Assembly (NCBI GenBank): GCA_038503075.1
Contig: JBCAML010000020.1
Span: forward strand, 1,178,001 to 1,242,000
Origin: Gyromitra esculenta
Lineage: Eukaryota > Ascomycota > Pezizomycetes > Pezizales > Discinaceae
Reading direction: 5' to 3'
Length of the DNA: 64,000 nt
The notes beneath the pieces are model-generated. The model did not search any database and was not told the origin of the DNA. It was given only the letters and a program-made list of their open reading frames with translations. This document shows, one piece after another, positions 1 through 38,898 of this stretch; within the stretch, counting starts at the first letter, position 1, and each line of letters opens with the position of its first letter. The translations under genes were made by a program, and so were the position numbers.

Positions 1-2248
1 ATCGGCGGCCTAGTAGGTTTGTTAGTTTATACTACCAAACTTAGAGATGAAATCTAATTCCTTACCTTCTCAGAAATAGCATAGATGGTGGATTGAATGT
101 GTGTGGCGGGTGTCATCGGGATGATAGAACCGTCAACGATGCTCAAATTCTTGATGCCGTATACAAGCAAGTCTGAACTGACAACACCACCGTGTTCGCG
201 CCTCAACATGGAACAAGTAGAACTAGGGTGAGCGAAAGTTGGAACCAAAGACGCTCTAATTGCCGCCTTAATTTGGTCATCAGAAGAGAGCGCAGGGCTA
301 GGACTTGTGCAAACAGCGCCGAGCTCCTGGAGGGCAGGGGTTTGGTAGAGCTTCCAAATGAACTTAACTTGCTCCACCATGATGTCGAGATCGGCTGGGT
401 TAGAGAGAACACCATAATCGACTACGGGAGCGTTCCATGGGTTTGTTGAGTTAATGTTGATTGTTCCACGACTGTAGGGCTTCTCCAGACCAATAGCCAA
501 ACCGGATCCTCCCCCAAAAGCGATTTCCTGCACAGCAACCCGACCAGACACCATGTAGTTCGCAAGAAGCTCATTTTGTCGGTGATAACCCTCGACAACA
601 GTGGAATCAGCATTCTTGGGAAGGTAGTCGGCAGGGTTCTGGCGCTGAACGGAGCTGATGATACGGTTGGCGGTGCTCTCGGAACTAATATCGACAAGGG
701 TATTGAAAGCGACAGAATTTCCTCTGCTGATAGTGTACGGGCCCTCACGTTTGTCTACATAAAACTTCCACATCTCGGCGGCGAATGTTGCATTGGTGGT
801 AATGTTTGTTGGGTTAATGCTATAGTCCTTGGAAACTGAGATGGTCAGACTGAGAACATGCACAACAAGAGATGAGGGATTTCTTACAGGTTCCTCCGAC
901 ATAAAGGACTGGGTGGTCTTGGAAGTTCTTTCCTACACCGGGAAGATCAACGACTGTGTTAATTCCGAGACTTTTCAGAAGGTCCTTAGGGCCGATTCCA
1001 GACAACTGCAGAATCTGAGGTGTGTGAGCAACACCAGCTGCCATGACAACTTCCTTCTTGGCAGACACTTTGGTGACCGGGTCACTTGCGCTGGCAGCAA
1101 ACTTTGGGAAAAGGTCAGCATTCACAAATTTAAGCTCAGTGATAGTTACAGTTGCATGTTGAGTACCAACCTCGACGCCTGTTACTGTGGTCCCAGAGAG
1201 CACAAGCTTTGTCACAGTCCTACCTGTGATAAGATGGTAGTTGGGTCGTGTCTTGCTGATCTCATAGTAATTCCTTGCATAAGATCGAGTTTGGCTCACT
1301 GAATCTAGAGAGTTGGGAACCCAGAAAGCACCAATTGCGCTGCCATTTGCACCATCCTTGGGAATTTTGATGCCAAGCTGCTTGAAGGCGCGGAACCAAT
1401 TTTCTAAGTAAATCCTAGTTAGTTTGACCCTGTAGATAATGGTGCTAGTGTGTACATACTAACTGCCTGGTACTGGAAATTCGGGAAACTAGATTTTATC
1501 GGGCCCGAGGTGCCATGTGCGCTTGGGTCATATTCAATTCCAAACTCTGCCGCCATTTCAGGATGCGGAGGAGTAAACGTTTCGCTCTATATATAATTAG
1601 TTGAGAAAATCTACTTGAGTGTTTTCATATATAACCAACCTTTTTGAAATAAGGTAGCAATCCTGACCAACCCCATCCTGGATTACCTAGTCCCTCCCAA
1701 AGATCGTAGTCTCCAGAAGAACCTCTATCGAAGAACATACCATTCACTACAGTTCCTCCTCCAACAACATGGGCTGCAAGAAGGCTGTATGTGCGGTTGT
1801 TAATGCCCTTTTGGGGAATACATGTCATGTTGAACATGTATTTTTGGCCAGTACCACCAGCTCTCCCGGGAACCAGGACACCATCTTCTCGGTCGTCCCT
1901 AACAAAGAGTGTCAGCCAGAAGAACACACATGGAGACGCCAAGACAAGACAACCTACAAATTTCCGGATTCAATGACGAGCACAGTTTCTGGATGGATTG
2001 CGTCAGTAGCCGCAGCCAAAAGTAACGTAGCCGTGTTCCATGTGTTTTCTGGGGTACAAACTGGATGAATTCTCAGAAAGCCTGTCGGCAACGATCAGAC
2101 CACTCGTTCCTCCTCCAACAACTACATAGTCGTAGGAAGACAGTAGCGCGGTATCACGCCCAACAAGTTGTGCTCTTTCGATAGGTGACGCCAAAGTGAA
2201 GGAGGCCAGCGACAGCGCAGAGAGCAAAAAAGTTGACAATCCAGGCAT
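1..2248 (-). CDS. Secreted GMC (glucose-methanol-choline) FAD oxidoreductase, aryl-alcohol-oxidase-like; 3' end cut by window edge
   Basis: FAD-dependent alcohol/sugar oxidase or dehydrogenase of family AA3. Exons, read on the minus strand: 2248-2062, 1988-1958, 1898-1640, 1586-1460, 1403-888, 835-66 and 9-<1; reading phase is kept across all six introns, giving 633 residues before the window ends. The protein opens with a hydrophobic signal peptide ([21 protein letters not shown]), then the ADP-binding Rossmann motif [23 protein letters not shown] signature 1 reads [14 protein letters not shown] and signature 2 [17 protein letters not shown]. The two conserved C-terminal histidines appear in HPSSTCSM and in PATHIQS. 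The last visible exon encodes only AAD after EK, matching the usual end of the family, so only a short tail is missing. Secretion and oxidase chemistry follow from the family; the substrate (aryl alcohol, glucose or other) cannot be told. No neighbouring gene suggests a cluster. Confidence 0.93.
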
Positions 2249-2371
2249 TTTGAATAATGTGCGTGTTTTTAAACGAATGATGGTGAACCTAGTAGGGATT
2301 GAAAAGACAGGTAGGATATGATGGTGGTATGAAAGGATGAGTTGCTGGGAAAAAAGATTCTAAAGAGACAT

Positions 2372-2379
2372 ATTTATAA
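2372..2379 (-). promoter_or_regulatory. Candidate TATA box of the GMC oxidoreductase gene
   Basis: On the minus strand the sequence reads TTTATAAATA about 125 bases upstream of the ATG at 2248, a normal distance for a fungal TATA element. This is seen by eye only; the transcription start is not known. Confidence 0.4.
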
Positions 2380-3579
2380 AGGTTCGTGATAAAAATCATA
2401 GTTTAATACCCTGCGCCACGTTTCTGCACCGGGTATCGCGTGGGATTCGCGTGGGATTGGAAATAGTGGGGACTCTGGGAATTCTCGGATGTATCCCGGA
2501 GCGAGCAGGACCTTCATCTCTCAGACAACGGGTAGCAAGTGGAGGCATATAGAGAAGTAGCACCATTCTTGTGAATACCTGCAGCACCGTAGCATGTCTA
2601 GGGGTGGTGAGTTATTGAAAGGAACCGTGTGTTATTTTTTGCATACTCACTTCTTTACCACTTTTCCACATTGAGTTTATAGACATTGTTAAAGCGGTAC
2701 AATATTCTTAATAACAGACTAAACGAGAATGACGGGACGCTCCACTACAATATAAATCATCCCTAATTAAACTTGCCACGCAAGAGGCCTCGGGGCCCCC
2801 TAGTGGCTAATTTTTAGAAATTTGCTTCCTACTTAAGCATCCTCGCCCCTAGGTGTCGAGGCGGATACGTTATTGTAGGTGAGAGTTCTGAGAGTGTCAT
2901 GCGATGAGCTTTCAAACAGACAAGGGGTTCATTTCAGAGCAAAGGACCAGCTCGAAAGGTAGAATCCATGCACAGTTTTCGAAGGCTCTCGATCCCTACA
3001 TGGGGATATGATAAAGCCAAGCCTTAATCAATGCATATAGGCATACCAACACCCAATTTTATGAAATTTTTAGCGGATATACAGACTAGTGGTAATGCCA
3101 TGGTATGAGCACAAAACTGAAAGTCTAGGTACAAACCTAGTTTCGAGATAGATAATTGAGATTCACAGATTCACAGATAAACAACATATTTTTCACCCTA
3201 AAAAGACGTTTCTACGATCTAGGATGACTTGGTAGTTGACTTCTCTACAAGTCCACCATAAGGCACCATGCACCTCCTATCTTTGAAATTTGTCCTGGCT
3301 TGCAAAAATCAAGGAGAATACACCAGAATCTTGATAAGACAATCGATTCGTTAGTGCCCTTTTCAATTAGCCAGATCAGTAATTATCAAGACTTTAGCCA
3401 ACCAAAGACTACGCTAGTATGAATGAGGTGTTGAGGTACTATACAGCAGCTAAACCCTGGGTATATTTAGGGGGACAACTGCTTATCCCAGTATGTAATG
3501 AGACGCCACATTGTAAAGTACCTGTTGGCAAGGACCCAATTGAACATACGAGAGTAGAACCTACTTCTTGACAAGAATA

Positions 3580-18661: not shown

Positions 18662-21600
18662 ATGGAAGCCGCCGGTGTTCTATCTGTAGCTTTCGGACTG
18701 TATAGCCTACCTATCCCCCCCTCCCCTCCCCACTCTATCTTTTCGGCTGACAGAGAGGTGTAGCGGACTTCTACTCCATGCCTCACAAACAGCATTCTTC
18801 GCTGCAACAAGAGGGTACATAAAGACGCTATTCGTGCACCGTCGAAGGCTGGTCCTTCTCGCTTTCTTCCTCTGCGTTTCTATATTCTCCATAACGCAGT
18901 TCGCGACGCTATTACTGCTCGATGACGCATCCTGCGGGGTGATGGTGCGGTTCACGCTCTTCTTCGACCAGGCTGCGCGGGTTGCTGCGCTCGCGCTCGT
19001 GATATGGAAGGTTTGCGATAAAGGTGGGTCGCGGGGCGAGGGGGTGATGTGGGTTTCGATTATTGTGCTGCGCATACTCATGGGCGGCATTATGATCGGG
19101 TTCACCGGGATGACGTTTATGCCGGTGTGTTTTCCGCAGCCGATGCATCTGGTGGTTGGGATCGTGCAGACTTCGTTCGATGGGATTGTGTTGGCGGTGT
19201 TGGGGTGGAGGATTATTGGGATTTGGATGCTGTTTGTGGATCAGGGACGGGGGAACGGGGGTGGCAAGAGCCAGGGGTATGGATTGTTTTTGATCGTGTT
19301 GGGATTTGTGGGGTGGACTATTGTAAGTTCTGGATGGATGGATGGGGATGGGGATGGAGACGAGAAGAGGATAAGGGAAAGGCTGACTAGTTGGTAGGGG
19401 AGTTTTCCGTATATGATGGGTGTTGGAGCAAGTATTTTCATCAGAATGGTTCCACATATCTTGACACTTGCGCTTGCACTTGGTAAGAAACTCTACGATT
19501 ACTTCAAGAGGATCATGCTAACCTAGCTATTTCCTCCAGGCGTCCTGACTTGTTTCCCATCAATTGCAGCGTCCAAAGACGATGATTCTTACAACTCCCA
19601 CAAACTGCGACGTTTCGGATCATCTGTTTCCAGTCCTCCAAGACGAGGCAGATCCGCATCCTCGCCCACCTACCCGAACGACATGGAGGCGAACAAATTC
19701 ACAACCTACGGAATAAGCGGCTTCGACAAGAACTATAACGGCCCGCGCAACAGCCAGATGTTCAGAAGCATCCTCGGCGCACCAATCGTCCACCCAGGCA
19801 GAGTCCTTTCGTGGTCACTCGACAGGGATGTTCCAGAAAGCATCACTCGACCGAAACCCGTGAAGGCACCGGAGAATACCAGAAGACCCAGTGTGGCACC
19901 TTCCCATGGTGGAAAGGCGAGTATATCTGGACCGATAGGGCCGATATTGAGGAACGGGTCTTTCGACGCGACGGAAGGAGCGGCGGAGGGGCAGGTGCCG
20001 ACAAGTAACCCATTTGGAAAGGTAAAAACAGTGGATCTGAAGACTGCAGCAGAGGCAGAACGACAGCGGATAGATGCAGCATTTGAGCGGGAACAGGAGA
20101 AGAGAGCAGCTACTCCGGCCTCAACACTGAGTAGGAGCATGGACAGGTCGACTAGTGTGAAGAGGAAGCCATTGGTCTCACAGCTTCCATCAGGGCCTGC
20201 GGCGTACAGAGCTAGCGCCGTTAGTGGGCTGCGTGGAGCACCGCGGGAGAGCGGACAAGGTAGTTCATCGAGTGTGAGGCAGTCGGTGTATGCGGGAGTG
20301 GAAGGAACAGACTGGGAGAGGTACAGCACGCATGCGAATAGCATATCGACAGAGGACGACGATACTACACGATATACAGTTGTTTCGCATGCCCCGTATA
20401 ATCTTGGCGCACCACCGCGGATTCCGCAACTGGAGGGAATAGAAAGTGATGCAAAGGTCATGTTTGTGAATGAGATTGTGTATGATTATCCAGCACTAGT
20501 AGATTCGCTCGTGGGGAGTTCGCTCGTGGGAAAGACAGATGTTGCCATGACGACCTCGAGATATTCGCAATCCACAGGAACAACAGTACGAAGGAGCCCC
20601 TCATCAGCTTCCAAGCAGCTACCCGGAATGCTCAGCCCTACTAGAGAGGTTGATGAGCCGTTTTCAAACTCTTCGAATTCGACACCGGTTATCAACAGAC
20701 CGAGAAATGTGAAGCAGGAGCTGGAGAGGGGGATTTTCCCGCCAAATAGGGATTCTGAGTTGGCTGCAGAAATGAAGTATAAAAAGAAGCATCTGACTAT
20801 GAGTATGGAAAGATCATCGAATCTTCCCTCATCAGTATCCACGAAACCACCATTCTCCCCGCCGACACAGGAAGCGAAGGTTAAGAAAAAGCCATCTAGA
20901 GAGATGGTGTTTCCTGTTCCTCCCATCAGGCCAACTTCCACCAGGAAGCCAGCTCCTCCTCCACTCACGATAATTATCCCAACAATCTCCTCCCCGGAAA
21001 TTATACAAAAGGTACTCACCCCTGATGCGGTCAACATCCCAGAGCAACTCCCAAGCGCGAAACCTGTCATTCCTAAGAAATCTGATAAGCGTATGATGCC
21101 TCAGATCAGCGATCGCAAAATTGTAGACAAGGAATATGAAGATGCCGCTTACGAGACTGCACAAGCATGGATGGATAGTGTTGAAGAGAACACAAATCCA
21201 TCCTATTCTGAGAGCATTATTGAACCTCTTCCCTCAACTGCATATAACCCCCAGAGTGGTATCAGTTCAATAAGCAGTTTGAACATGTCAGGCTTTACGA
21301 CTAGCACAATTCTTCGAAGGAGTTTAATATCACTTACGACATCACCAAAACCTAAGGAAGACGATGAGGGAGAATTCACTGATATCGACATCGATTCTTG
21401 CTCTGAAATGGGAGAAGACGAAGACGAAGAGGTTGGCTCCGGCGAGCTAACTCAGAGCGAGATAGATGAAATGATTATGAGTGGTGGAGAGGGTTACTCG
21501 ACAGAGGAAGAGTCCTACGAGGAAGATTACTTCACTGACAGCGACGAGGAGCGAGGATATCGCGATGACGGGGTTGTGATCTCTGACGTTGAAGACGGGA

Positions 21601-24600
21601 CCAACTACGATAAAATCGCACTAGCAGAACGAAAACTCAATGCAAAAATGTACCCTTTTACGGCAAACACTCTTGCCATCCCTCGCCACTTTCAGATCGG
21701 AGATCGAATTCCCACGTTCTCGGAAAGTCGACGCAAGTATGGGAATCGGAGAAAACCCCCGCCATCACCGATAGGGTTCCTTATGCGCCAACGACGCGAG
21801 TCTCAGCAGATCCAGACAAGACTCATGATGTTTGCTGGGAACCCAAATCTTGGCCCTTTGGAAGATCTTATGAACAGGTTCCCTACTAACAGTAAGAGAG
21901 ATACTCGAATGAGCTATACCTCCGACGGTCGTAACTCCCTCATTGCTCGTCTCGAAAGAGAGATGGGGCAACAAGAAAGCCAATGGAAGGGTATGCACCA
22001 GGACTTGAAAAGAAGTTCTGTAGGATCCAGTGAAGACTCTCCAGCGCAGAGAATGTCAAGACTATCTCAGAATCTTGCCCAGCGCCGCTCGCTCTTGGCA
22101 AAACTTAATAGTGGAATTGAAAGAAGGCTAGGTAATGCGCAGGCAACAATGACTTCTCAGCCAAACACTTCCGCGTCTTTCTCCGGTGCTTTGCAACAAC
22201 TAACAGAAGCCCACATGGAGTATCTGGCACAAGCACCATCGTTTTCAAGTAATGTAAATGAGTTATCACTCAAGCCCATGACTATCTTGGCGAGCCAGCA
22301 CACGCCAGTCTCAGTAATTTCGGAATCAGAGCTTGACATGGGTATTGAGTCCCCTTTGAATATTCATGATGAGACCCAGAGGAATTCTTTCTATATGAAT
22401 GATAATTCGAACTTTGTAATAGAGGAAGAGGGAGAGGAAGACGAGGGAGAGGTGATTGAAGACTACGAAGTAGAATATGAGGATGATGAAGATGACGGTG
22501 AAGAGGAAGAAGAAGAAGACGAGTATTATGAAGAAGAGGAAGCTGTTCAGCCATTGCAGGCAACCGTATATTGCCCTAGCATTCTCTCCGCCAGCATTCA
22601 GCTAGAATCTCCAGCCCAGATCTACTCCTCAACTATAGAAGCTTTCTCGCCAATGACCAAGCCACCTGTCTCTCTCCTTTGGAGCCCACGCATCCTTCGG
22701 GAAACAGCCTCCGAAACCAACCAACTATGGAGCTATCGCCCATTGACACCAAAATCCACTTTTATCTTTCCTCCTGCGGTAGACCTACGACCAAAGCAAC
22801 GTATTTCCACCGCACCCTTAGTAAAGCCCACAACAAATCTATGGACAAAACCCCGTTCTACCCTTTCCGCCTCTCCAACTAGATTATGGCGCAATCCGAG
22901 GGAAGCTAGAACGAAGAGTATCATTGTTTCTTCGTCTGGAAATGGCCGGACAAGACGCTCTCTCAAAAGAGTAACGTTTGTGGAAGAAGTAATAATTGGT
23001 AAGTTCAGTATATATCTGCAAAGAAGATAAATTATCACTAAATATTCTTAACAGTTGAACCCACCGGTCTCTTTGGAAAACTCAAGAAGCTCTGGGGAGC
23101 AACCAAGAAAGCTGCTCCAGCCGCTGTGCCAACTATGCCAAGATCCCTCATGGCCCAGACTCAATCCAAGGTCGAGGAGAACCCTATTAAAAGGGCTCTG
23201 GATCCCATTGCTGTCAAGTATGCAAACAAGATGCTTCCGCCAATCCCAGTTGAAGAATCCGAGGAACCCAAGAAGCATTCACAGAATATCACCCGTAATG
23301 TGCTCTGGTCAAAGAAGGATAATATGGCATTGAACACGATCAATACAGAGCTATGGGTTCCTACCCCAACCCCTGCACTACAGTCCGAGCAGGCAGTGTT
23401 CGCCAAAGATGCATCAGAAATCCGCACAATATCCAGAGTAGCCGTACTCGCGGTCCTAGAATCAAAAAACCTCTGGGGAATGGACGAAACCGCAGTACCA
23501 GCCACACTCTGGGCCAAACCACATTCAAAATATCTCTGGCCTCAAGGTCCATCTATTGCGGCCCCCATGGGATATCTCTGGCCATTTGCTTCCTCACTAC
23601 CAGTCATTGAGTTTAGTTCTGCCCCTCGATTCGGTCGGGCACCACCGACGCTCGCTCTAGCATCCCTGGAATCCGCCGAGCTTTGGAAAGCTACAGAATG
23701 GAGACTCGAAGAATCCGCGGGACTTTGGTCTGGCAGTTGTGTCTGCGCTCATGAAGTATATTCGTCAGAGCCAGTGGATACCATCCCGGTCGACTACCTC
23801 TGGCCCGCAGCTGCTTCTCTGCCAGCTTTATATCTAATCGTTGATGCAGCACTATCTGTTCGATCTCGCCCATACACCACTCTAGAGACCCTGAAGTCTC
23901 GCAAACTCTGGCAGCCAGCATCAAATGTTGCTGTACTAGCGCTATGGTCAGCTCCGATGAAAAAGAGCTCGTTATGGCCACAAGGTGAACTGGCTAGGAC
24001 GGCTGCAGGAAGCCTCTGGCCTTCTGCTGCATCGCTGCCATTCGAGGCTCAGGTCCTATCTCGCACTCACAGGGTGCTCTCGGCACCACTAGCATCCTTG
24101 GAATCTACCGAGATTTGGAAAGCGATTGTTAAGCAAAAGGCGCAGGAGTCAACTGGTCTCTGGTCTAGTGAAGCCAAGCGGTCTTATGACGAAGAGTTGT
24201 GCTTTAAGGGGCCTGTGCAGACTCGTTCCGACTACCTTTGGCCCACGGCTGCTGATCTGCCGACTTTGTATCCTATTGATACACCACGACTGATTCGATC
24301 TCGCCCGTCTACTCTAGAGGCCTTGGAATCGTGTAAACTCTGGCAGCCATCAACCATCACTGTGGGGCTATGGACTACCCCGACTAAAAAGAGTGCGTTA
24401 TGGCCACAAGGAGAAGTCACAGCCCCCACGGGGAGCCTTTGGCCTTCTGCCGCTGAACTATCATTCGAGGTTGAAGTTGTACCACGCTTCTATAGAACAC
24501 CATCAACGCTGCCATTGGCGCCACTGGAGTCTAATAAACTCTGGGAAGAGGCTATTAAGCTACAGGCAAAAGAGTCAACTGGACTCTGGTCTGCTGAATC

Positions 24601-27600
24601 TGCGTTATATTATGCTCAAGAACTGTGTTTCGAGGAGCCTTTACAGACTCGTTCTGACTACCTTTGGCCCACGGCTGCTGATCTGCCGTTTCCGCATTTT
24701 GTCGGCGCACCAAGACCTATTCGATCTCGCCCGTCTAGTCTAGAAACCCTAAAATCACGTAACCTCTGGCAGCAGTCAACTACAACTCTAGGGCTATGGA
24801 CTGTCCCGATCAAGAAGAGCGCGCTATGGCCACACGGAGTCACAGTCTCAACAGGAAGCCTCTGGCCTTCTGCTCCATCACTCCCATTCGAGGCAGAAGC
24901 TATACCAAGCTATTATAGAGCACCATTAACACTGGCGCTGACACCTCTAGAGTCTACTGAACTCTGGGAAGCAGTTATTAAGCCAGAAGCGAAAGAGTCA
25001 ACCGGGCTCTGGTCTACTGAACCTATCTCTCTCTATGAAGAGTTGTATTTACAAGAACCTACAGCTGTATCCAGCTACCTCTGGCCCACAGCTGCGTCTC
25101 TACCAAGTTCATATACCGAAAAACCATCCCCAATCCGGTCTCGCCCAGCTGCTCTTACGACTCTAGAATCGCGCCAACTCTGGCAACCGGCATCTGCTGT
25201 TATTACACCACGCTTATGGTCACCCCCAAAAACAAAAAGCGCGTTATGGCCCCACGGAGAGATCACAGCATCTGTATCTGCTGGCTTATGGCCTTCTGCA
25301 GCCGACCTACCAACCCAAACTGGTACTGCAATTCGGTTCTATAGAGCATCATCAACACTATCGTTGGCATCACTGGAGTCTACTGAGCTCTGGAAATCAA
25401 CTATTACATCTGAGGTCTACCCGTCAACCGGGCTCTGGTCCGGCCCCACCACTGACATCGCGGAGTCGTGTTTCGAAGAACCTACACAGACCATCCACTA
25501 CCTCTGGCCTACAGCTCCCGTTCTACCACTACCGCACCTATCTGTTCAGGAACGTATTACTAGATTCCACCCACACACCACCCTCGCAGCCCTCACATCC
25601 AGCCACCTCTGGGGAACATCAGTAGCTACACCAAGCCTATGGACCACCTCAACCCCCGCCCCAAAGTCCCTACTATGGCCTTCTGCCGCTCCAGCAGCCT
25701 CATCACCAGCCAACCTCTGGCCTTCCGCCGCCTCACTCCCACACTCACTCCCGCTCGACCCCGTCCAGCCCCGGAGCTATAGAGCACAACCAGCCCCAAT
25801 CTGGGCATCTATACAGTCCGCCGCCCTCTGGAGCACACCCGCTCCGCAGGTCGCCAAAGCACCAACCGGGCTCTGGTCTACTGATCCAGCAGAGGTTGTA
25901 CAGACGCAGACCTACCTCTGGCCTTCAGCCGCAGCTTTACCAGTGCTGCGCTTGGCTGCAGTACCATTCCGATCGCGGCCGGCGGCTAGGGCTAGGGCTG
26001 GGGTTGCTGTTGTTGTTGTTGCGGAATTGGGGTCTCGGGAGCTATGGAAGGCGGTAGATGATGGTGCGAGGACGAAGGGGCTGTGGATTGCGCCGGTTGG
26101 GAGAAGCAGGTTATGGCCGCATGGAGCTGCGAGAGTGGATGGGAGACTGTGGCCTTCTGCGCCTGCTCTTTGTGTAGATATTGCGGGGAGGGCGGTTTTG
26201 GATACAGTGAGGTCGCGGCCGCAGGGGGTGGCTATGGGTATAACGTCTACGGCGCTTTGGAGGAGGGAGGAGGGAGGGGAGGGGTTGTGGAGTATGGAGA
26301 AGAGGAGTGGGCTTTGGCCACATGGAGCGGTGGAGAGGAAGGTGCGGGGAGGATTGTGGCCGAATGCGGAGGTGGAGGTTGGGTACGGAGGGGGTTGTAC
26401 GGAGGTTCATGGGAAGAGGAGGGTGCTGGAGGAGCTTGCGGAGGTGGAGAAGGGGGGGCTTTGGAGGCCGGTGGGGGTTATTGAGGAGGAGGAGGAGGAG
26501 GAGGAGGAAGAAGAATTGGTTAACACTAAGCTTTGGGCAAAGACACAAGATGCGCCTACTATCACTTCTGGACATCTTTGGCCCTCAGCACACTCGCTAC
26601 CCACATCATCAAACCTACCTTTAGCAACTATTCACTCCCGGCCCAACGCCCCTCTGCAGCTTCTCGAATCTACAAAACTATGGTCTCTAGAGCCTACCCA
26701 AACACTCTGGTCCCCCCGGTCCCCCCACACTCTTCTCTGGCCGTCCGGAAAGACTACCAAAATCACTACACTCTGGCCCTCCGCCTCACCACTCCCACCC
26801 ACGACCCTCCCCCCAAACACCCACAGACCCCACCACGACCCTCTCGCGGCTCTTCAATCCTACCACCTCTGGAACTCGGAACCGCCCAAAAGTAGCCTCT
26901 GGACCGCGCCAAAGACAAAGAGCGCGCTCTGGCCACACGGCTGCCAAGCCGCCGAGTCCAAACTCTGGCCGTCCGCGCCCGCACTGCCGGCCGTGGAAGG
27001 GTTGGGTCGCCAAGCAGTTTGTAATTTCCGAACCGAGACCGTTGAGGTTGTGTCAGGCCGGCTTTGGAGCGGCAGTGTGGAGACGGGGCTTTGGAAGGGG
27101 GTTATAAAGAGTATGCTGTGGCCAACGGGAGGAGTTGAGAGGGTTAAAGGGAGTCTCTGGCCTTCTGCGAGAATGCTACCTTCACCACCCTCACTGCCTT
27201 CACCACCCATGGGTGCTGTTCGTGCTAGGTATGTACAAGCGGATGTTGCGGAGCTGGAATCGAAGAGTCTGTGGAAGAAGGGATGTGGGCCATCACTGTG
27301 GACGAAGCGCCAGGAGGAGGGTGGACTGTGGCCCAGCGGCGAGAGGGAGGAGGGAAGTGATGGTCTGTGGTGTGCACGAGATAACGCGATGATCGAGAGA
27401 AGGTCGAATCTTACGTTGAAGATGACCGTTGACGAGAGGGTGGTCAGAAGGAAATATGTCTCCGGTGCGATCGCGATTGCTTCAGGCTTACTATGGACCC
27501 GGCCGGAAAAACCGCGATCACAGATAGATTGGCTCCTGGGGAGGCAGGAGATCCACAGCTCATCCAAAAATACCCCGGACATCGCCTCCAGCGCGCCGGC

Positions 27601-30600
27601 AGTAGGGCTCTGGATCGAAGCATCTCCCGTGCCTGGCATTCTCACCGAACAGCTCTGGCAGCGCAGGGCCGCCACCGGAGCACCTAGGGTTAGGTTCACC
27701 GCCCGCGATGGTGGGAGGGCTCCACGGAGGAGAGCGCTTCAGACCGCCCCATCGGGCGCCCTTGGCCCTCTTTGGCATTTACCCGAAGGATCCCTCGCGC
27801 GTCAGCGCACATGGGCGCCAGCTCCGCAGCGAGGCCTGTGGGCGGCGACTGCACGTCTCGCGCAAATCAACGCGCGCGCGCACAATAATAGGTCGCTGGG
27901 GGCGAAAGCCGGCAGTGCTCGCAGCCCATTGCAAGCTGCCACGGGCGCGGGCGGTGGGGATCGCATCCACGCGGCAAACACCGAGCCCGTCACGGCGGCA
28001 GCTCGGGGTTGGGCGGCCGATGCTCCGAGGATGCTGCTCTGTGACAAACCAGCGCAACTCCCGGAGTTTCCGGGGCCAGCAATCCCTGCTCCGCACTCCC
28101 CATCGTCGCGATCGCAACGGGTGAATAAGCGAGCACCGATTATTGCTCCCCCGCTTTTCTTGGCGCCGCTGACCCAGAGCCCGACGTGGGCCGCTTCGAA
28201 ATCGCTCTCCCGTCCACGTGGGCCATGGCGCCCGCCAATATCAGGTACGGCCACCGCTCTCTGGTCCTCCGACAACTCTGCTTCTTCTCTGGAGGCATTG
28301 ATCAAGACTGAGCCAAAGCCGCACTCTGCTCCATTGCTGTTCTCCGACATCTCGAAGCAATCGATCCGGTCCGTCAGGAAGCCAGCTGCCCCAATCACCG
28401 TTTCTATGGAAGGCCCACTCTGGAAATCGCCAGTCGACAGTGCCCCGTGGCGCAAGAAGGATGAAGCCTCGCCGCTGTGGTCGGTCGACGGCATCGCTGC
28501 GGTGCCCGTGCCTGCCTCTGATACTACCCATCTGTGGTGTGAGAATCCGAGTGCCACGGCACCCATCTTCGCCGACTTGTCACTTGAGTCGTCACGCAGT
28601 CGGCGTGAACTCACCGTCGAGACACTCTCTGCCCCGCCCGAGGGACTGTGGGAGAATCAGGTGAGCGGGCCGGTGGTCGAGGAGCCGATTACTGGGCTCT
28701 GGGGCGCGGTGGAACGTGAGCCGGTTGTTTTGAATATTCCCGAGGGTGTCCTTTCGCTGTGGGAGAAGGACAGCGCTGCAGCTCCCATGTTTGCTGATTT
28801 GCCCGTTGAGTCTTACCGATCGAAGAAAGACCACTCGACCGTCACGTTCCCTGTCTTCTCGGAGGGCATGTGGAAGAAGCGTGCTGCACTTCCGGAGAAG
28901 CCCCAGCTGTGGAAGCCGACACCTAAATCGACATATCTGTGGGACAGCAGCTCAAAGACAAAGACGTTAGCGCAGATGTTGTTGGAGAAGAAGGCAGAGG
29001 AGATCAAGAAGCCACTATGGACGAAGAACCAGGCCTCGAGGACAACCACCAAGGCTCCGCAGAGGTCGCTTTCCATTGTGCGGATATCAGATAACACCAG
29101 CCTTCCAAAGGTCTCTGGTGGTCTCTGGAAGCCAAAGGCGGCTGTGGAGCAAAAGCCAGAACTCTGGACTCTACCGAAAGCTGCTACCAAGACACAGAGG
29201 CCAGCTGGGTCACCGTTGTGGATAAAGGGTCACGTATCAAGGACAACAGAGGCGGTTCCAGAAAGGACAAAGGTCTTGTTCACACCGTCAGACGCTCCGC
29301 TCCTTGTTGTGTCCGGCAACCTCTGGAAGCCAAAATCACCAGAAAAGAAAGCCGGACTCTGGAAACGCCCCGTCAAGACTGTGGCTACATATCGCCACAC
29401 GAGCGTCTCTGCTCCACTCTGGGCAAAGGAAACTGCCTCCCGCACTACCGCAACCCGGCCCGAACGTCTTGCTTTCGCTCCGAAGAAGAAGGAAGCCTCG
29501 ACGACTCTCACGAGGGCCTCGGGCTCACTTTGGCAACCCAAGGCCGCCCCACCTCTAGACAAGCTCTGGGAGACACCTCCACCAGCACCCAAGCCCCGCC
29601 GCGGAAGTCTTCTGTGGGCAAAACACTCAGCCCCCCAACTCGCCGTGGAGCTCGTACGCACGACTGTTCCAAAACACCTAATTGATCCGCCTCTCCCCGT
29701 CGTCTCCGGCACACTATGGCACCAGAAACCCACCGAGGACCCCAAGAGTCTCTGGAAACCCACCGCCGAAATCTCTATCCCCCCTCGTTCCACCTCTACA
29801 CCGCTCTGGTCAAAGGAACACGCATCCCGGACCACGACCGCCCGACCTTCCCGCGCCCCATTCGTCCCGAAGCCCAACCCCAAATCCCACATCCTCCCCG
29901 CCGCAACCGGCACCCTCTGGAAACCAGCACCATCCGCACCCGCACCCCTCACCCTCTGGACTCAGAAACCCGTCTCCACAGGTTCCGGCGTCTGGGACGC
30001 CGAAGGCCGCACTCCATCGCTAGCTGAAATCAAACGCCAACTAGCAGCCCGTCAAGACCTATGGCAGCGCCGATCAGTCCTTACCTCGAAAGCCGCGTCC
30101 ATTGCTCCGTCACCGAAGCCTATCAAGAAAATCAAACTCCCCACAAATTCAAAGCCCGTTCCTCCGGCGCTGGGGAATCTATGGCAACCTATCTCGCCGG
30201 TTATTCCGAACTCGGTTATGTGGATTACGAGGTCGTCGCGTAGTAATTCGCTTGAGGATTTTGCATCACCGGTTTTGTCGCGCGCATCGACGGTGTCGGA
30301 TGTTAGCGAAGATGAGCTTTCCCCAACTGCGGAAGACGGTGGGTTCGACGACGTTGGGATCACGAGGATCCATTCTACGAAAGCTAGTATTTCATCCGTG
30401 GGAGGCGCAGAGATGTTGTGGCGGCCAGCAGGAGGGCAGGAGAAGAAGGAAGTGCTGTCACTGTGGTCCGGAGAATCGGCGGAGGGCGCGAAGAGGAAGA
30501 GCGTACTGGTTACTGAACGGCCGTCCAAGATCCCATTACCAGGAGTGGAGACAGAGGGAGAGTTAACGGTGTTCGACGCAAGCCATACACTATGGAAGCC

Positions 30601-31190
30601 CGCCACTTTGGCAGAACCGAAATCATCACTATGGACCTACGGTCCCCATGACGAGTGTGGCTCCGACTCCAGCTCCAGCTGCGACGAAACTGACTTCCAT
30701 GACGCCGAATCCCACGACGAATCGCATGGCGAGTCGGACTTCCATGATGCCGAGTCACAGCTCTCGGAAGACGATCATTATCATGACTTCGACCATGTCT
30801 CGCCTCAGCGCGCTACTTTCCCGGACAATCCGTCGCATGTTGTGGTTGGACAGTTTCGGCGCGATAATTATATCCCTCGTAACTCCCCCCCCCCTCCTCC
30901 TCTGTGTGCGTGTGAGTTGTGAATAGTGTGCTGACCGGGTAGACTCCAACCAGTCTGAGCAAACTCTCCCGGAAGGATCTCCGTTCGCGAGCAGTATCCG
31001 GATTAAATCGTTAAGGAGAAAGTTGAGGCCAACCATTACACATCCGGATGAGCGGAGAGCTGCTACCGCGGCGGAGGAGAGTTTGAGAGGGAATTTAGAG
31101 GGCGTTTCTGGTGGTGACGGTGGTAGTGGTGGGGAGACGGGGGCGGTGGTACCGGGAGTGGGGTGGTTGTGGAGTAAGGGGATTATCTAA
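18662..31190 (+). CDS. Giant (about 4,072 aa) multi-pass membrane protein with a long Leu-Trp repeat tail
   Basis: Six exons fit: 18662-18699, 18758-19322, 19398-19482, 19540-22998, 23055-30878, 30943-31190; phase is kept throughout (12,219 nt with stop). Residues 1 to about 235 hold several hydrophobic segments (VLLAFFLCVSIFSITQFATL, FTLFFDQAARVAALALVIW, WVSIIVLRILMGGIMIG, HLVVGIVQTSFDGIVLAVLG, LFLIVLGFVGWTI, ILTLALALGVL), about seven by eye. Residues 240-1270 are polar and look disordered, with Asp/Glu-rich runs near 21360-21600 and 22420-22540. From about residue 1276 to the end I count roughly 110 Leu-Trp dipeptides, mostly LWPSA, LWPTA, LWPHG, LWKP, LWSK or GLWS, in tandem units. The final residues (GWLWSKGII) repeat the theme. 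I do not recognise the family. The plan suggests a membrane-anchored flexible tether or scaffold carrying many identical Trp-based docking motifs; that is inference. The N-terminal splice joins are the weakest part: the tail could belong to a separate gene starting at 19683. Confidence 0.8.
23792..26330 (+). repeat. Tandem protein repeat class A (about 138-146 aa per unit)
   Basis: Within exon 5 of the giant gene, the YLWP(T/A/S)A anchor recurs with its preceding codon at 23792, 24230, 24656, 25073, 25496 and 25910, that is every 438, 426, 417, 423 and 414 bases. Each unit carries the same ordered motifs: RSRP, LESxxLWQP, LW(S/T)xP, KSxLWPHG, GSLWPSAxxLP, a YRA element, LExTELWK, STGLWS, an acidic E-rich patch, then the next YLWPTA. 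Later units up to about 26330 are more diverged and purine-rich. Confidence 0.9.
29011..29830 (+). repeat. Tandem protein repeat class B (about 64-68 aa per unit)
   Basis: The anchor PLW(T/A/S)K followed by ASRTT recurs at about 29011, 29212, 29416, 29608 and 29800. Each unit continues with a basic Pro-rich segment, VSGxLWKPK, and one more LW before the next anchor. Order and spacing differ from class A, although both use Leu-Trp cores. Confidence 0.85.
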
Positions 31191-32701
31191 ACTTGCTTTT
31201 TTTTTTTTTATTGTATTTTTCATACTATTTTTTTTTATTGAGGGATCGTTTTGATCGTGAGTTTGATAGGCTGTGTTTGAGAAGGAGGTTTAGGGGTGGA
31301 AGAAAAAAAATATTGGAGGAAGAAGGAGGGTGGGGAGAGAGGATGGAGGGGATTTCTGTCTGTGTTTTTTTTTGGGGGGTTTTTTTTTTCTTCAAGGAAG
31401 GGGGAAAACCGCAGGGGGTGGTAGTGAGTTGAGAGCGGGGCCGTGCTGGGTTTGTAAATGGCGTCGGGTTTTATTGCTTTTTTTTTTTATTTCATCGTAT
31501 GCGGGATTGCGTGGTTTTTTGTTTTTTTTTCCTTTTCCTTCCCCCCTCTCTCGGGGAAGTGGGTAAGAGACGTACGGGGGGGGGGTTGTGTGTGTGCGGA
31601 AATGAACTTGCATTGTTCGGCTTCTTTATTTTTTATTTTTCTGGTCTGGTATGGTGGAGGGCAGTTAGTAGCTTTGTTTTTTTTCTCGCTTATTTATCAT
31701 TGCCTTTCTGGTCTAGTTAGTTTGCGCGCTCCTTTCAGGAACATAATTTAAGCTTTTTCTTCTCCTTCCCCTTCCTCTTCTTCTACTTCTTCTTCTCGAA
31801 GGGATGGTATATATATTGCCGCCGCCGGCTCAGTTCGGTTTCGAATCGGAACCTGGGATAAAGTGGAGTGGAGTGAGGGTTTGTTTGGGGAAGGGTTTTT
31901 AGGCTCTGGAGTCACGAAGTATCACTCGGCGAGTTTTATGCAACGTCGTGTTGTCAGTAGCGTTCCCATTCGTCGTGGGCTTGCTCTGCGGTGGGGGGGG
32001 TTAGGGGTAGGGGATGTACTTCTTAAGCTCAGCTGAGACTTTCTTCGTCGGGGCTATAAGAGACGTGATGCACCCACCCCGTTCCCGGGTTCGCTCTAGA
32101 CAAGGACGTTCGTCTGGGTTAAGGCGGTAGGTAAGGTACATGTGTATTGGTAATGTCCCTACGAGGGAGTGGAGGGAGGGAGGGAGGGAGGTGGGCTTGG
32201 AGATGCGATCTGAGGCGAGTTTTACAAAAAAAACCCTTTCTATGATTATAACTAGGACTACAGCTGGGGGGGGGCGAGGACAAAGAAGCTAAGTGGAGTT
32301 ACATCCCAGAGTCAGTAACTAGCTACATAACGGATTCAAACTCGATTTCGACACGCGAGTGATATCTCATGATGTGTCGAATTCAGCAACACTGTTGAAT
32401 GAAAGAGGACGGTTTTGTTCGCGGTATCACGCATAGGATTCGGAGTCCGTCTACGCAATCTTGGAAGCCTGTTAATCTTCCAGCGTTGCGGTTCAAGATC
32501 TGCACGGATTTCCAACATGGTTCCCGCCAATCCAATATATAACAAAGACCACCAATCACAACCCCATCACCGCCACCACCGCCCTCTCTGTCTTCCTTCC
32601 CTCACCACCACCACATCCCCCCACCCCCCATAAATAACCCCTCCACTTCACTCTGCTTACGAGGACACAACCCAACCCAACCCAGCCAACCAACCAAAAC
32701 C
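31191..32701. other. Intergenic stretch with low-complexity tracts
   Basis: About 1.5 kb. T-rich and G-rich homopolymer tracts follow the giant gene's stop codon (31197-31560), consistent with a 3' untranslated/terminator region. A GGGA tandem lies near 32171-32192 and CCACC/CCAAC repeats at 32560-32700 run up to the next start codon. No further gene seen. Confidence 0.55.
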
Positions 32702-33301
32702 ATGGATCAACCAAAACCCTACATCAGCCGCTTCACCGAGCACTTCGACCCTCTCCCGCTCAACACACGCGTGGTCAACGTCGCCCTCTCCGAATCGCTG
32801 CGCCTCGAGCTCGCCGACGCCCAACAGACCCGCGACGCAATCGTCAAGGCGCTCACCCCCGTCTCCGCCGAGCTGTGCTCCCTCGCCCAGATCCATCGGG
32901 ACCTGACCGCCGTGCTGGCCAACTACCACCACTTCTACACCTCGCGCGGCCTGCCGCCGCGCCAGGACCCCGCCAAGCCGCTGAGCCCGCTCGACGCCCA
33001 GGCCCTCGAGCTCGGCGACAGGGTCGCGTACCTAGCCGAACATAAGCGCCTGCTCGAGGAGCGCCTGCGCTGCTGGAACTGTAAGGTGGATGCGCTGAGG
33101 GCGAGACTGCGCGCGGCGTGCCATATGGCGGCGTATGCGAAGAGTCCGCTGGCTCTGGCGAGGGCGGAGAATGAGAGGCCGCGAACACGCTGGTTTAGGC
33201 AGCTTGCGAGATCCCCGCCTCCTGTGCCCCCGGCGAGGTCCCCGCCGCCGCCGCCGCCCCCCGTTAGGTCGCCGCCGTCGCCTCCGTCAATGGCTTCGTG
33301 A
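32702..33301 (+). CDS. Small coiled-coil protein with proline-rich tail, function unknown
   Basis: Single-exon gene of 199 residues; the ATG at 32702 is preceded by AAACC, a good fungal start context. Residues about 25-145 are rich in Leu, Ala, Glu and Arg with heptad-like spacing (for example SLRLELADAQQTRDAIVKAL and EHKRLLEERLRCW), suggesting an alpha-helical coiled coil. Residues about 165-199 form a Pro/Ser/Arg tail with repeated RSPPP units, the kind of segment bound by SH3, WW or profilin domains. The codons are very GC-rich compared with the flanks. I recognise no named family. Soluble, no signal peptide; a small adaptor is a possible but unproven reading. Confidence 0.7.
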   Translation: MDQPKPYISRFTEHFDPLPLNTRVVNVALSESLRLELADAQQTRDAIVKALTPVSAELCSLAQIHRDLTAVLANYHHFYTSRGLPPRQDPAKPLSPLDAQALELGDRVAYLAEHKRLLEERLRCWNCKVDALRARLRAACHMAAYAKSPLALARAENERPRTRWFRQLARSPPPVPPARSPPPPPPPVRSPPSPPSMAS

Positions 33302-34134: not shown

Positions 34135-36732
34135 TTAGAGAAAGGCCACTGTAATATCTCTCTTCTCCAGTGTCACTTTCTCTCTCGATGCCTCCTTCCA
34201 CCCCATCTCCTCACCACCAGCAACAACTGGCCCAAACTGCGAGTTAACTGCATTTTCAATATCCACACTCGACATCTGGCTCAACACACTCCGACTGCGA
34301 TAAATTACTGGCTGCAACCCCAACCCCTGACTACCAGATCTGAGCATATTTTTGCCCTTGAACTTTTTGCCGTCCTTGGTATTGCTCTGTGACTCGTTCT
34401 CCTTGTTTTTGAGTTTGAGACCGGGACTGTAGTTTTGACTGTTGTTACTAGGAGTAGTCCTAGGTGTATTTTTGGGAGTGTTATTATAGTTCTCGTTACT
34501 AGTAAGAATACTGCTGCGACTCCAGTTCGGACTGTAATCTTTAATTTTGAGTCCACTTTTAATCTTCATCTTTGTTGCAGGGGCATTCAGGTTACTATTG
34601 CCAACACTGCGGTGCATATACTCACTACGTCTCTGTGGTAGTGGTGGGATTTTCTCCGGTGGAGTGTTAGTGGTGGTGCTGCGAGTATACACACTTGAAG
34701 TGCTTATATTCATATTTTCCATAACGCCAGTAGCTTTCCTATACCGGCTTGGTGTCGACTCCCTTGCCTCTTCGTCAGCAGAGCTCGAGTAAGGGAAGAA
34801 AGTTGATGCAGATTTAGCCATGCGCAGTTTCCTTTCTGGTGTGGACATCGACTTAGTCGGAGTAATATTTAATGGCGCCGGTGTAATACTATCACGGTTG
34901 CTATCCTGGCTAGTTCTCATCCTTGAATTCATGTTCATAATTCTCTTTTCCGCTTCTGCTGCTGGAGTCCCACTTAGCCACACGTTAGTGCCGCTCGTAG
35001 TCTCATCAGCATTCTCCTGTCGATAGAAAATCGGTAACGCGGGTATTGGCGGAGAATAAAACGACTCGTTTTCATCCCCGGAGTTCTGTCTCAACTTTCC
35101 ACTATTCTTCCTAATAGCAGTAACTACGGTGTTTGTTGATGCAGCTGTGTATGGTCTTTCAAACATACCTTCCTCCTCCGGCCGCAGTCCCAATCCTGGT
35201 GCGTAGTAGTATCCAGGTCCATGAACATATTCTGCCTCTTCCCTCTTCGCGCGAGGCGAACCCCTATCTAGACGCTTCATTAATGCGGAGTAAACTCTTT
35301 TTGCTTCGTAGCTTTTCTGAGTCTGCTGCTTCTCAAAAGACGGTGGAGAGTAAATATCCTCCTTTACTTTGTTTGGCATGTTCTCGTCGATTATAGATAG
35401 TCGCTTCTTACCTGCCAGATAGTTTCTATCCAGCGTAGCATTCCATGTCGACATCCCGTCTGTAAGTATTGACATATCCCGGTGAGACGGTGGCCTCGGC
35501 GGGGACGCCTCCCCAATCGATCCTGTGACAGAATGCACCATTTCATATGATGGAACATGCCTAAAAGTTGGAGCCCTCGATACGACAGCCGGCCGAATCG
35601 TCAAATTATTCGGGTCTGGAATATCTAAGATATTCTCATGCAATTCATTAGGCGAGACATAATCCCTAAAATGCTGTCTTGTGCTCGTGACGTGCTGCTC
35701 TGGAAATGCCGGTTCCATCTTAACCTGTTTTCCAAATGCCCTCCTCATGGTGTCAAAGAAGGAGGCCGACATTTTTCTTGCTTTTTCACCAACCACCTTC
35801 TTAACCGAATGTTCCTTCTCATCACCTTGCTCTTTTTTCTTTCCACGAACTGTCTCAGGGAATGCAATCGGCTTCTGCCCACGTCTTGATGATGCGGAGA
35901 GATAAAACGACTTTCGTTCCTTCACAATTGGTCTTTCCTCTGCGTACTGCCGCCTCAGCGACTCTGGCATGAAATCCGTTCCTCCACGAAGAAAAGACAT
36001 AGATTTTCTCCGGCTGCCAACACCCTCTGGGGACAGCTTAGAAGAATAAACCACAGACGACGGATATTCGTCACTCGGTTGTTGTTGGAACACCTGTCCA
36101 ACACTAAATACAGACTTCGTCTTTCGAAGTCTACGATATGAGGACGGAGTGCTAGTCTCAAAAGAGCAGTCTTCGGAATCGGTTGTCGTAAAATTCATCG
36201 AATGGCGAGCACGGGGCGTGAATCGTTGCTGCTCTAAACTCTCCTGCATGCCCCATCTCCTTGCCTTGGCAGTGTCGGTCTCACTAACATCCCCAGGAGA
36301 TGAAGAAGCGTCGTAAGACATCCGCCCATTAACTGCTGCAGACACTTTAGTAGTATTAGAAACATTGGCTATGTTAGCTGCTTTAGAAACAGCAATTGTA
36401 GTGCCATTAGACAAGATTGATGGCCCATTAGCAGTAGCTGTTAAGTACCCATCATCACCCTTTGCGTCTGCTATACCCTCGTCTAGATAGCGGTTATCAA
36501 CAGGAGTCGAAAACCTGACTATCTGGGATTTCCGACGTTGCAAGTAGTCACCGTAGGCACGTTGAGCTGCAGCAACAGCCTGCTGGCTCCTCTCCTCGGG
36601 TGCCAGCATCTCGGATCTAGTTGGTGTAGGGTGCGAGACAGTTTTGGCTCTGCGGAGCCGGCTGCTGCGGCGGATAGTGGCATTCGCAGTAGCTGGGCTG
36701 GGTGAGGAAATGGTATTGCGGCGAGAAAGCAT
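34135..36732 (-). CDS. Large disordered Ser/Thr/Arg-rich protein, function unknown
   Basis: Single-exon gene. I place the start at the ATG at 36732 (MLSRRNTISSPSP), giving 865 residues; the in-frame codons further upstream lack an ATG. The protein is hydrophilic, has no signal peptide or membrane segment, and looks intrinsically disordered. The N-terminus is strongly basic (RRSSRLRRAKTVSH). Several RKS/RRKS/RKT sites resemble basophilic kinase sites. A helical patch with EERSQQAVAAAQRAYGDYL lies near residue 50. The C-terminus ends in a mixed-charge helix, EKVTLEKRDITVAF. No domain is recognised; fungal proteins like this are often scaffolds or cell-cortex/septum factors, but nothing in the sequence proves that. 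Confidence 0.75.
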   Translation of the reverse strand: MLSRRNTISSPSPATANATIRRSSRLRRAKTVSHPTPTRSEMLAPEERSQQAVAAAQRAYGDYLQRRKSQIVRFSTPVDNRYLDEGIADAKGDDGYLTATANGPSILSNGTTIAVSKAANIANVSNTTKVSAAVNGRMSYDASSSPGDVSETDTAKARRWGMQESLEQQRFTPRARHSMNFTTTDSEDCSFETSTPSSYRRLRKTKSVFSVGQVFQQQPSDEYPSSVVYSSKLSPEGVGSRRKSMSFLRGGTDFMPESLRRQYAEERPIVKERKSFYLSASSRRGQKPIAFPETVRGKKKEQGDEKEHSVKKVVGEKARKMSASFFDTMRRAFGKQVKMEPAFPEQHVTSTRQHFRDYVSPNELHENILDIPDPNNLTIRPAVVSRAPTFRHVPSYEMVHSVTGSIGEASPPRPPSHRDMSILTDGMSTWNATLDRNYLAGKKRLSIIDENMPNKVKEDIYSPPSFEKQQTQKSYEAKRVYSALMKRLDRGSPRAKREEAEYVHGPGYYYAPGLGLRPEEEGMFERPYTAASTNTVVTAIRKNSGKLRQNSGDENESFYSPPIPALPIFYRQENADETTSGTNVWLSGTPAAEAEKRIMNMNSRMRTSQDSNRDSITPAPLNITPTKSMSTPERKLRMAKSASTFFPYSSSADEEARESTPSRYRKATGVMENMNISTSSVYTRSTTTNTPPEKIPPLPQRRSEYMHRSVGNSNLNAPATKMKIKSGLKIKDYSPNWSRSSILTSNENYNNTPKNTPRTTPSNNSQNYSPGLKLKNKENESQSNTKDGKKFKGKNMLRSGSQGLGLQPVIYRSRSVLSQMSSVDIENAVNSQFGPVVAGGEEMGWKEASREKVTLEKRDITVAFL

Positions 36733-37137
36733 GGTGATAGTGATTGGTGAATGATTCACAATTATTGTTGATGAAGTTTGTGGCTATAAAACCATGAGAT
36801 GAGAGCTTAAAGATCAATGAGATGCCTTCGAGACGTATTATTTGAAGTTATATCACGCGCAAGTGACCTGCTAGCGTGAACGTCACGAGAGGTCACTCGA
36901 GCCAAAACACAGTAACGGACCATTTCAAATGCATTCTGGGAATATCGAACGGCTATTCTAGATAACTTGTCTATCCACTAAAAATCGACAGCCTTCCCTA
37001 CTACCACGCTCAACCGGAGGGAAAAAACAAGACCAAAACCGGTCGATGAAAATTAGAAAATCCCAAGAATGAAATCGCGTTCCTTCGTGCAACCACAGAA
37101 TTTTACAGCGCATTTACACAGACCTAAAATCCATCAA
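36733..37137. other. Intergenic, no gene seen
   Basis: About 400 bases upstream of the 865-residue protein gene and just beyond the 3' end of the peptidase gene. It presumably holds the promoter of the former; no clear TATA box on the minus strand. Confidence 0.4.
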
Positions 37138-38898
37138 CTAAGCAAGACTTCCCATAGGATCCCACAACGGCAAAACAATAGGATCCTGCTTAAGCACGTC
37201 TAAAATCTCCTTGCTAACAAACGCAGGGTCAACCACTGCTTGATAGCAGTACTCGCTCATCCAATCGTCGCTCATGATAAGATAACCCTTCTCGCCAGAG
37301 GTTTCACCCCACGAGTTCTCTATCCGCCATTTTACTGGCTTCCCGTCAACAATGTGAACTCCACTGAGAACCATGGCGTGGGTCATTGAGCTCTCGCCTG
37401 TGAGAAGCCTTTGCCCTTTGTCCATCCCTAGAGTGACATTGAATCCGAGTTCGTAGTCGAATAGGTTCGTGTCTAAGACTCCCTTCTGGGTTTCTATAAA
37501 TTTGCCAACATCGCATCCAAAAAAGATAGGGCGCTGCGCTTTGATCATGGCGATACAGGCTGCTTTCATGGTCTTTTTTCGGTCAGCTTTGTCATACAAT
37601 TATGGAGGTCAGGTGACTCACATCCATGTCAACGTTAACATATCGTATACCCCTCCCACCAACGATATTTCCCAGGCGCTCTACGGTTAATAGCCTATTA
37701 TAGGGATTTCTCGGGTCGTTGACCAACGAGAATCTCTCCCCGACACCTTTATCGCCGGAACCCATGATATCGCCTCCCAAAACATTATCCAAGATCCCAG
37801 CAGCACCGATCGAGACAGCCCCAATGTTCTCCTTGTAGAAATCTAGTGGAGTGATGGTCAGGGAATGAAATTTCCCGTCCTTCTCGTAGTAGTTCCATGT
37901 GAAAGTGTCATCAGGCTTAGGAGGGACACCGAGTGCGAGGACGAGAATACCGTAGACTTGCTGGACGATTTTGGCTTTGTATGTTTGGAGCTCATCAGAC
38001 TTGCTGCTGCTGGAGGAGCTCGCGATGTCACGGCTGCGGGAAAAATATGTTAGTCCGATATACCAATTTTGGAGAGGAATCACACTTACAGGATTAAAGC
38101 AGCTTCGCGAAGCTTGGCTGTGATAAGCCAATTGATGCGGGATGAGGCCTTGGCGTTGAATGAATCAGGGTATAGAGCTTGAGGGACCAATCCGTATTTC
38201 TCAACTAGGTTGACAACCATATCCCATTGCCCACCATCCCCAACGGGGGAGTGAAGCAGATACTGTACCAGCCTGCCATCCAACGGTTGATCGACAGTAT
38301 CGATAACCTCTATCCAGAACCGTCTTCAATTAGCAAATGAATTTCAAGACCCCTCATATTGAATAAACTTACGCTCTAAGAAAAAGTTTGCCTTCTCTAG
38401 TTTATCCCAGAAAAATAAATAACTCTGTGACAGCTGGAATCCGCCAAGTTTGTATTTCTTGATCAGGCCTATACGGAAGACGTTGGTACTCGCGAAAAGC
38501 CAGCATCTTCCTGAAGACATCTGGTTTGTCACCGGAGAGCCCTCCGAGTCGATCTTGTCACTGAAAATGTGGGTGTCATTCAGCAGCACCGATGGCCTTT
38601 GCAAGATAGATGTGGCAGCGTGTGTGCTGAGCGCAGCAAGTGCAAGTCGATTCTAGATACGATTTGTTAATTACAGTCAAACGTGAATAAATACTAGGAG
38701 CCGCACCTTGGGATTCGCGAAAAGCTTCTCTTCCCACTTTACCACCGCCGAGAGTCGGAGAGAAAGTGAAGGTTCGATATCTGAATCCCCACTTTCATCA
38801 CGGAAGGACAAATCGCTGAGTTTTGAGTCTAGGCGTGTTCTATCCTTCTCGGAAACGGGATATGTAGTGACACGCGACTTGGAGTGAGAGGAACCCAT
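37138..38898 (-). CDS. BLH1: Bleomycin hydrolase-type cysteine aminopeptidase (peptidase C1B)
   Basis: Exons on the minus strand: 38898-38707, 38652-38373, 38309-38090, 38033-37622, 37572-37138 (512 residues, close to the family's usual length). The papain-like active site is complete: Cys in MSSGRCWLFAS, His in MTHAMVLSG, Asn in ENSWG, with the oxyanion Gln in NQMSSG just before the Cys. The family (yeast Lap3/Gal6, human BLMH) forms hexameric cytosolic barrels that trim peptides from the N-terminus and detoxify homocysteine thiolactone. The C-terminus ends in MGSLA; in relatives the C-terminal tail sits in the active-site cleft and confers aminopeptidase action. The N-terminal extension begins MGSSHSK, matching the N-myristoylation pattern (Gly2, Ser6), which would place the enzyme at membranes; yeast Lap3 also has an alternative N-terminal form. 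A TATATA element lies about 80 bases upstream. Confidence 0.95.

Follow-up and report, generated by a model that had tools for sequence, protein, structure and literature searches.

A giant predicted membrane protein with 111 Leu–Trp motifs in Gyromitra esculenta, a candidate docking scaffold

The window analysed here, a stretch of 64,000 nucleotides from Gyromitra esculenta, contains what appears to be a single gene for a giant protein of unusual design: a hydrophobic head, predicted to cross the membrane several times, is followed by an acidic spacer and by a long tail in which the dipeptide Leu–Trp (LW) recurs 111 times. We conclude that this architecture is real and has been selected, while the function of the protein is a matter of inference. 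We give an even chance to the idea that the LW protein is a membrane-anchored scaffold that faces the cytosol and docks its partners in a multivalent manner.

As far as can be read from the DNA, the gene occupies positions 18662-31190 of the + strand, where three long open stretches (18690-19397, 19527-23030 and 23042-30922) underlie six exons, which together form a single frame of 4,070 residues with a mass of about 446 kDa. The five GT-AG introns (18700-18763, 19323-19397, 19483-19539, 22999-23054 and 30879-30942, of 64, 75, 57, 56 and 64 nt, respectively) leave this frame without an internal stop. Exon 1 (18662-18699) provides the start codon, the ATG at 18662, and consists of 12 codons and 2 bases; it is the weakest of the exons, but an exon is needed here because no ATG occurs in the frame of exon 2 from the preceding stop to transmembrane segment 1. 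On the basis of the hydropathy peaks, exon 2 (18764-19322) encodes transmembrane segments 1-4 and most of segment 5, the remainder of which is encoded, with most of segment 6, by exon 3 (19398-19482, 85 bases), placed by its flanking introns and its frame. Composition, charge and LW positions assign to exon 4 (19540-22998) the end of the head and the acidic spacer (residues 241-1273), followed by the first 4 LW (22677-22884). Exon 5 (23055-30878) carries the LW array, with 106 LW, and exon 6 (30943-31190), which the last intron joins in frame, encodes the C-terminal part, with the 111th LW (31167), and carries the stop codon.

Introns 2 and 3 are of textbook form (GTAAGT..CTGAC..TAG and GTAAGA..CTAAC..CAG). 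The length of about 4,072 residues given by the earlier note results if intron 1 ends at its second in-frame acceptor (18757), whereas the acceptor that we chose gives 4,070; this acceptor and exon 1 are the weakest part of the model. Intron 5 has an alternative in-frame form, a very short one of 31 nt that starts at 30912. Splice consensus by itself does not discriminate: a strict scan of the region gave, on either strand, three start sites, and it recovered only introns 2 and 3 of the five. The motifs are more informative: those of exons 4 (n=4), 5 (n=106) and 6 (n=1) lie in two genomic frames that match the splices exactly, which supports introns 4 and 5. The link between head and spacer depends on introns 1-3 and is less secure. 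The presence of two separate genes was considered and rejected, as LW is found on both sides of introns 4 and 5, in the frames required by the splices; moreover, the open frame of the head stops about 290 bases before the spacer frame has its first ATG, a distance that is probably too short for an ordinary promoter. The sequence supports the single phase-consistent gene proposed at the outset: our six exons share one frame, and LW continues across introns 4 and 5.

The tail (residues 1274-4070, 2,797 residues) begins with the first LW, at residue 1274 (22677); the last one is at residue 4064 (31167). Leu precedes 111 of the 124 Trp of the tail, while 2,000 shuffles of its composition gave 12.7 +/- 3.3 LW, and 26 at most. 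In the region 22600-31200, the frame of exon 5 contains 106 LW and the other five frames 3, 4, 7, 7 and 14, which excludes chance or the shadow of another frame as the source of the motif; of the 14 LW in the richest of these other frames, 5 belong to this very gene, being those of its exons 4 and 6. All six Leu codons occur across the 111 LW. Two successive LW are never less than 9 residues apart, although a geometric distribution would give about 26 shorter gaps out of 110; the gaps are of 9-16 residues in 56 cases and of 32-40 residues in 28. The motif was described earlier as about 110 copies on about 2,800 residues, in fixed contexts, and the counts bear out both statements: LWPSA occurs 12 times, LWPHG 5 times and LWPTA 4 times. 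Pro follows Trp directly in 30 cases (11.7 expected), and Ser or Thr is enriched before LW, both at position -3 (51 of 111, 20.9 expected) and at position -2 (40, 20.9 expected), so that phosphorylation beside LW could regulate binding. There is no enrichment of Ser/Thr-Pro sites themselves (41 compared to 55.8 expected). In residues 2818-3115 (27365-28258, +) the LW are sparser, with one gap of 141 residues, and these may be decayed units.

Several classes of tryptophan motif were compared with the array and rejected. The LIR motif, which binds Atg8, is W-x-x-[LIV], a pattern found at 6 of the 111 LW (21.1 expected). Binding to Pex14 involves WxxxF/Y, and Phe or Tyr is found four residues after Trp in none of the 111 (3.1 expected). 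In the clathrin W-box and in the adaptor motif WxxF, a Trp or Phe lies three residues after the Trp; here this is never the case (0 of 111, 6.5 expected). A W-acidic array is equally excluded, with 6 of 111 compared to 10.4 expected.

The array is in part periodic. Alignment, profile, periodicity and repetition at the DNA level all define 18 consecutive units of about 71 residues, u1-u18 (23576-27364, +), which span residues 1555-2817 and hold 64 of the 111 LW; the earlier ones pair into blocks of about 142 residues. The distances between LW peak near 71 and 142: the peak at 142, of 42, is above all of 500 permutations of the gaps (36 at most), and that at 71, of 39, equals the highest of 500. 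The array also contains a duplication detectable at the DNA level (24207-25021). Three LW columns of the 18 aligned units are kept in 18, 17 and 18 units, and a fourth in 11. Between units two apart (16 pairs), pS is 0.42-0.91; dS is saturated in 7 of these pairs, and the other nine, whose dS can be estimated, have a dN/dS of 0.15-0.75. That the LW columns are kept despite saturated dS, and with all six Leu codons in use, argues for selection on the peptide and not mere copying of the DNA. Judging from the sequence, LW is thus selected as protein in the aligned part; the LW before residue 1555, in 2818-3367 and after 3702 lie outside the aligned set. A constraint on the motif array is supported at the protein level by these columns and their pS.

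Five units of a second type, of about 67 residues (LWxK..ASRTT....SGxLWKPK...LW), occupy 29015-30019 (+, residues 3368-3702). Outside its training set, the profile of the first type of unit detects a partial unit at residues 1507-1547 (22.6 bits); in the second half of the array its best scores are 13.2, 9.6 and 8.4 bits, the others being lower, while 20 shuffled tails gave at most 4.7 bits and several of the second-half matches are no better than these. Both halves share a pair of LW, roughly S-x-x-LW followed after 10 to 15 residues by another LW. A common origin of the two halves is not established, since the comparison of their profiles gave a probability of 25% only.

In the head, hydropathy reveals about six hydrophobic segments between residues 42 and 236, with borders set by eye, in agreement with the multi-pass membrane head that had been predicted; whether there is an extra hydrophobic stretch, at residues 5-17, depends on exon 1, which is uncertain. 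With borders set in the same way, the successive loops contain 5, 0, 2, 0, 2, 0 and 7 Lys and Arg. Positively charged loops generally face the cytosol (the positive-inside rule), so both ends are probably cytosolic, which suggests that the tail is cytosolic too. There is a Cys in each of the first two putative outer loops and also in the first inner loop, and charged residues occur within the segments taken as membrane spans 2, 4 and 6. A single-sequence AF2 model of the head exon is entirely helical and of low confidence (pLDDT 54.2, pTM 0.29); this pLDDT is too low for a comparison of folds, and a Foldseek search with the model returned 16 matches, the best with an E of 2.3, none of which is meaningful.

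The spacer (residues 241-1273) is mildly acidic, with a net charge of -39, and falls on the disordered side of the charge-hydropathy plot, consistent with the predicted disordered acidic spacer of the earlier note. Residues 1274-3905 have a net charge of +76, and the pI of the tail, which is rich in Ser, Ala, Pro and Leu, is 9.5. The chain that carries the motifs had been described as flexible. AF2 predicts no fold for one block (9 alignment rows), only coil and one short helix (pLDDT 56.5, pTM 0.14), in line with this description; on the other hand, the array lies slightly on the folded side of the charge-hydropathy plot (0.461, with the boundary at 0.424), which is evidence against simple disorder. 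From a polymer formula, the tail would have an rms end-to-end distance of about 54 nm and a contour length of about 1,007 nm.

No named family was known to have such a design, and our searches of Pfam, NCBIfam and PDB sequences agree; no Pfam-A or NCBIfam family matched at its curated score. In Pfam-A, the best match of the spacer exon is Thoc5 (10.7 bits, below the cut-off of 29.4) and that of the head exon is Strabismus (5.9 bits, below the cut-off of 25), while the tail exon has no match at E up to 1. NCBIfam, which is a library for prokaryotes, contains no match to three parts of the protein (E up to 0.1), and neither the tail exon nor the head exon matched any PDB sequence. When the genome of the fungus (47.1 Mb in 23 contigs) is searched, the head matches only itself at E up to 0.001, and so does the spacer exon at E up to 1. 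A collection of viral contigs gave 3 pattern matches to the head exon and a collection of contigs from prokaryote genomes gave 93 to one block, with no relative in either, as expected from the viral and prokaryote nature of these collections. Long LW-rich hypothetical proteins, some with an odd enzyme name, are found in other filamentous ascomycetes, and the LW protein may represent an uncharacterised family rather than an orphan. The titles and the first lines of abstracts in the literature consulted mention no LW-repeat protein.

Regarding the neighbourhood, a frame of 252 codons with a proline-rich end (32543-33301, +) lies just downstream of the LW gene and matches nothing in Pfam at E up to 1. 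That frame aside, the next long frame downstream is a Ser-rich one of 882 codons (34135-36783, -), for which Pfam gave no match at E up to 0.01. Pfam matches above the cut-off in the window are a GMC oxidoreductase (54-1458, -), a C1-like peptidase (37592-38164, -) and a DEAD-box helicase (54842-56353, -); the frame at 56496-58283 (-) has a DEAD match below the cut-off (19.1 of 26 bits). The window also contains a tRNA-Leu with anticodon TAA (60669-60753, -) and a tandem repeat with a period of 36 bases (62222-62335).

In the mechanism that we favour, a head of about six helices would anchor the protein in the membrane with both ends in the cytosol, and the acidic, disordered spacer would keep the array off the membrane. 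The approximately 110 LW, about half of which are 9-16 residues apart, would act as short linear motifs that bind one reader protein, or a few, in many copies; each would be a site of low affinity, the number of motifs supplying avidity, and the bound readers would be concentrated or tethered within some 50-100 nm of the membrane, which could be the plasma membrane, that of the septal pore or the surface of an organelle. The multivalent docking scaffold or tether of the earlier note appears to fit this anatomy, whereas the sites that it named, a septum or a cytoplasmic body, derive solely from an analogy with Leashin. Could the array instead be mostly spacer, grown by duplication in an ordinary member of a widespread, uncharacterised fungal family? 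The duplication at the DNA level and the LW-rich proteins of other ascomycetes go in this direction, but a neutral spacer would not hold LW in 53 of the 54 cells of three columns at such values of pS, and we regard this as very unlikely. It is highly improbable that the protein is secreted or faces the cell wall, as an adhesin whose extracellular tail binds polysaccharide through LW: Trp often stacks on sugars and a membrane anchor is present, but the positive loops suggest a cytosolic tail, the whole protein has 9 N-glycosylation sequons compared to 13.8 expected, and Cys are few (16 of the 2,797 tail residues). The main rival, which we consider rather unlikely, is a condensate made of stickers and spacers, in which LW side chains would bind each other as the Phe-Gly of nucleoporins do, so that the anchored tail would cohere into a layer, or into a plug, at a membrane or pore with no dedicated reader. 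FG-repeat nucleoporins are long chains that carry spaced aromatic dipeptides too; the LW protein differs from them by having LW instead of FG, a multi-pass head and longer recurrent motif contexts. Aromatic residues at least 9 apart, in a chain of this composition with no predicted fold, are consistent with stickers, and disordered proteins accumulate or aggregate at septal pores in this fungal group according to the excerpts of PMC10023807 and PMC5309816, which report long disordered stretches in 13 of 23 SPP proteins and disorder in SPA proteins; by their description, these have disorder in common with the predicted state of the LW protein. On the contrary, the recurrent contexts (LWPSA, LWPxG, Ser/Thr at -3) and the 71-residue units exceed what stickers need.

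The last alternative, quite unlikely in our opinion, is that the LW protein ties Woronin bodies or another organelle to the membrane, as a lineage-specific functional counterpart of Lah. On the same contig (1337571-1337771, minus strand), a HEX1-like frame matches the solved major proteins of Woronin bodies (E 1.5e-67), which suggests that Woronin bodies are made. The HEX1-like domain ends an open frame of 673 residues and covers 407-571 of the 575 residues translated (1477-3201, -, in locus L003); the preceding part may belong to the protein as a long extension of its N-terminus, or it may come from an intron or from upstream sequence that is open by chance. Six stretches match Mpv17_PMP22, a family that includes WSC. 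The N-terminal region of Leashin binds Woronin bodies through WSC, and its C-terminus has a coiled coil; the N-terminus of the LW protein is a putative membrane head. The comparison with Leashin and septal proteins draws on excerpts of PMC2690989, PMC5345055, PMC7275032, PMC10023807, PMC5309816 and PMC5656841. In those of PMC2690989, HEX is tied to Pezizomycotina, and the Leashin family is described as having a highly acidic, PELS-rich central region that is thought to be elastic; predicted homologues have 5,936-7,480 residues, more than the 4,070 of the LW protein, yet its 446 kDa is within the range of LAH-1 and LAH-2, which run at about 400 and 450 kDa. Like Leashin (LAH-1 and LAH-2 in Neurospora, Lah in Aspergillus), the LW protein is giant, repetitive and apparently membrane-anchored at one end, a tether by its anatomy, and Leashins are described as having a common function but not always a common sequence (PMC5345055, in excerpt). 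The same source places a membrane-spanning segment and a putative extracellular domain of Lah within its C-terminal 288 residues. The LW protein has its multi-pass anchor at the N-terminus, and no 19-residue window with a mean hydropathy above 1.5 after residue 1649; its array is basic where the middle of Lah is acidic. Membership of the Leashin family is rejected on these two features, the position of the anchor and the acidic middle: the LW protein may act like a tether, yet by these tests it is no Leashin.

Returning to the docking scaffold, we suggest, tentatively and with some doubt, that it could represent a new class of membrane scaffold in filamentous fungi, in which an array of about 110 LW and a dedicated LW-binding domain would build a dense layer of clients on one membrane, distinct from Leashin, from FG nucleoporins and, by their description, from SPA proteins. 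If the LW protein is a docking platform, it would be a natural array in which one tryptophan motif is set with unusual density, and a giant scaffold other than Leashin would join the proteins that organise the periphery or the septal pore of the fungal cell. If it associates with itself, it would be a natural counterpart of FG repeats, based on an aromatic dipeptide of another chemistry.
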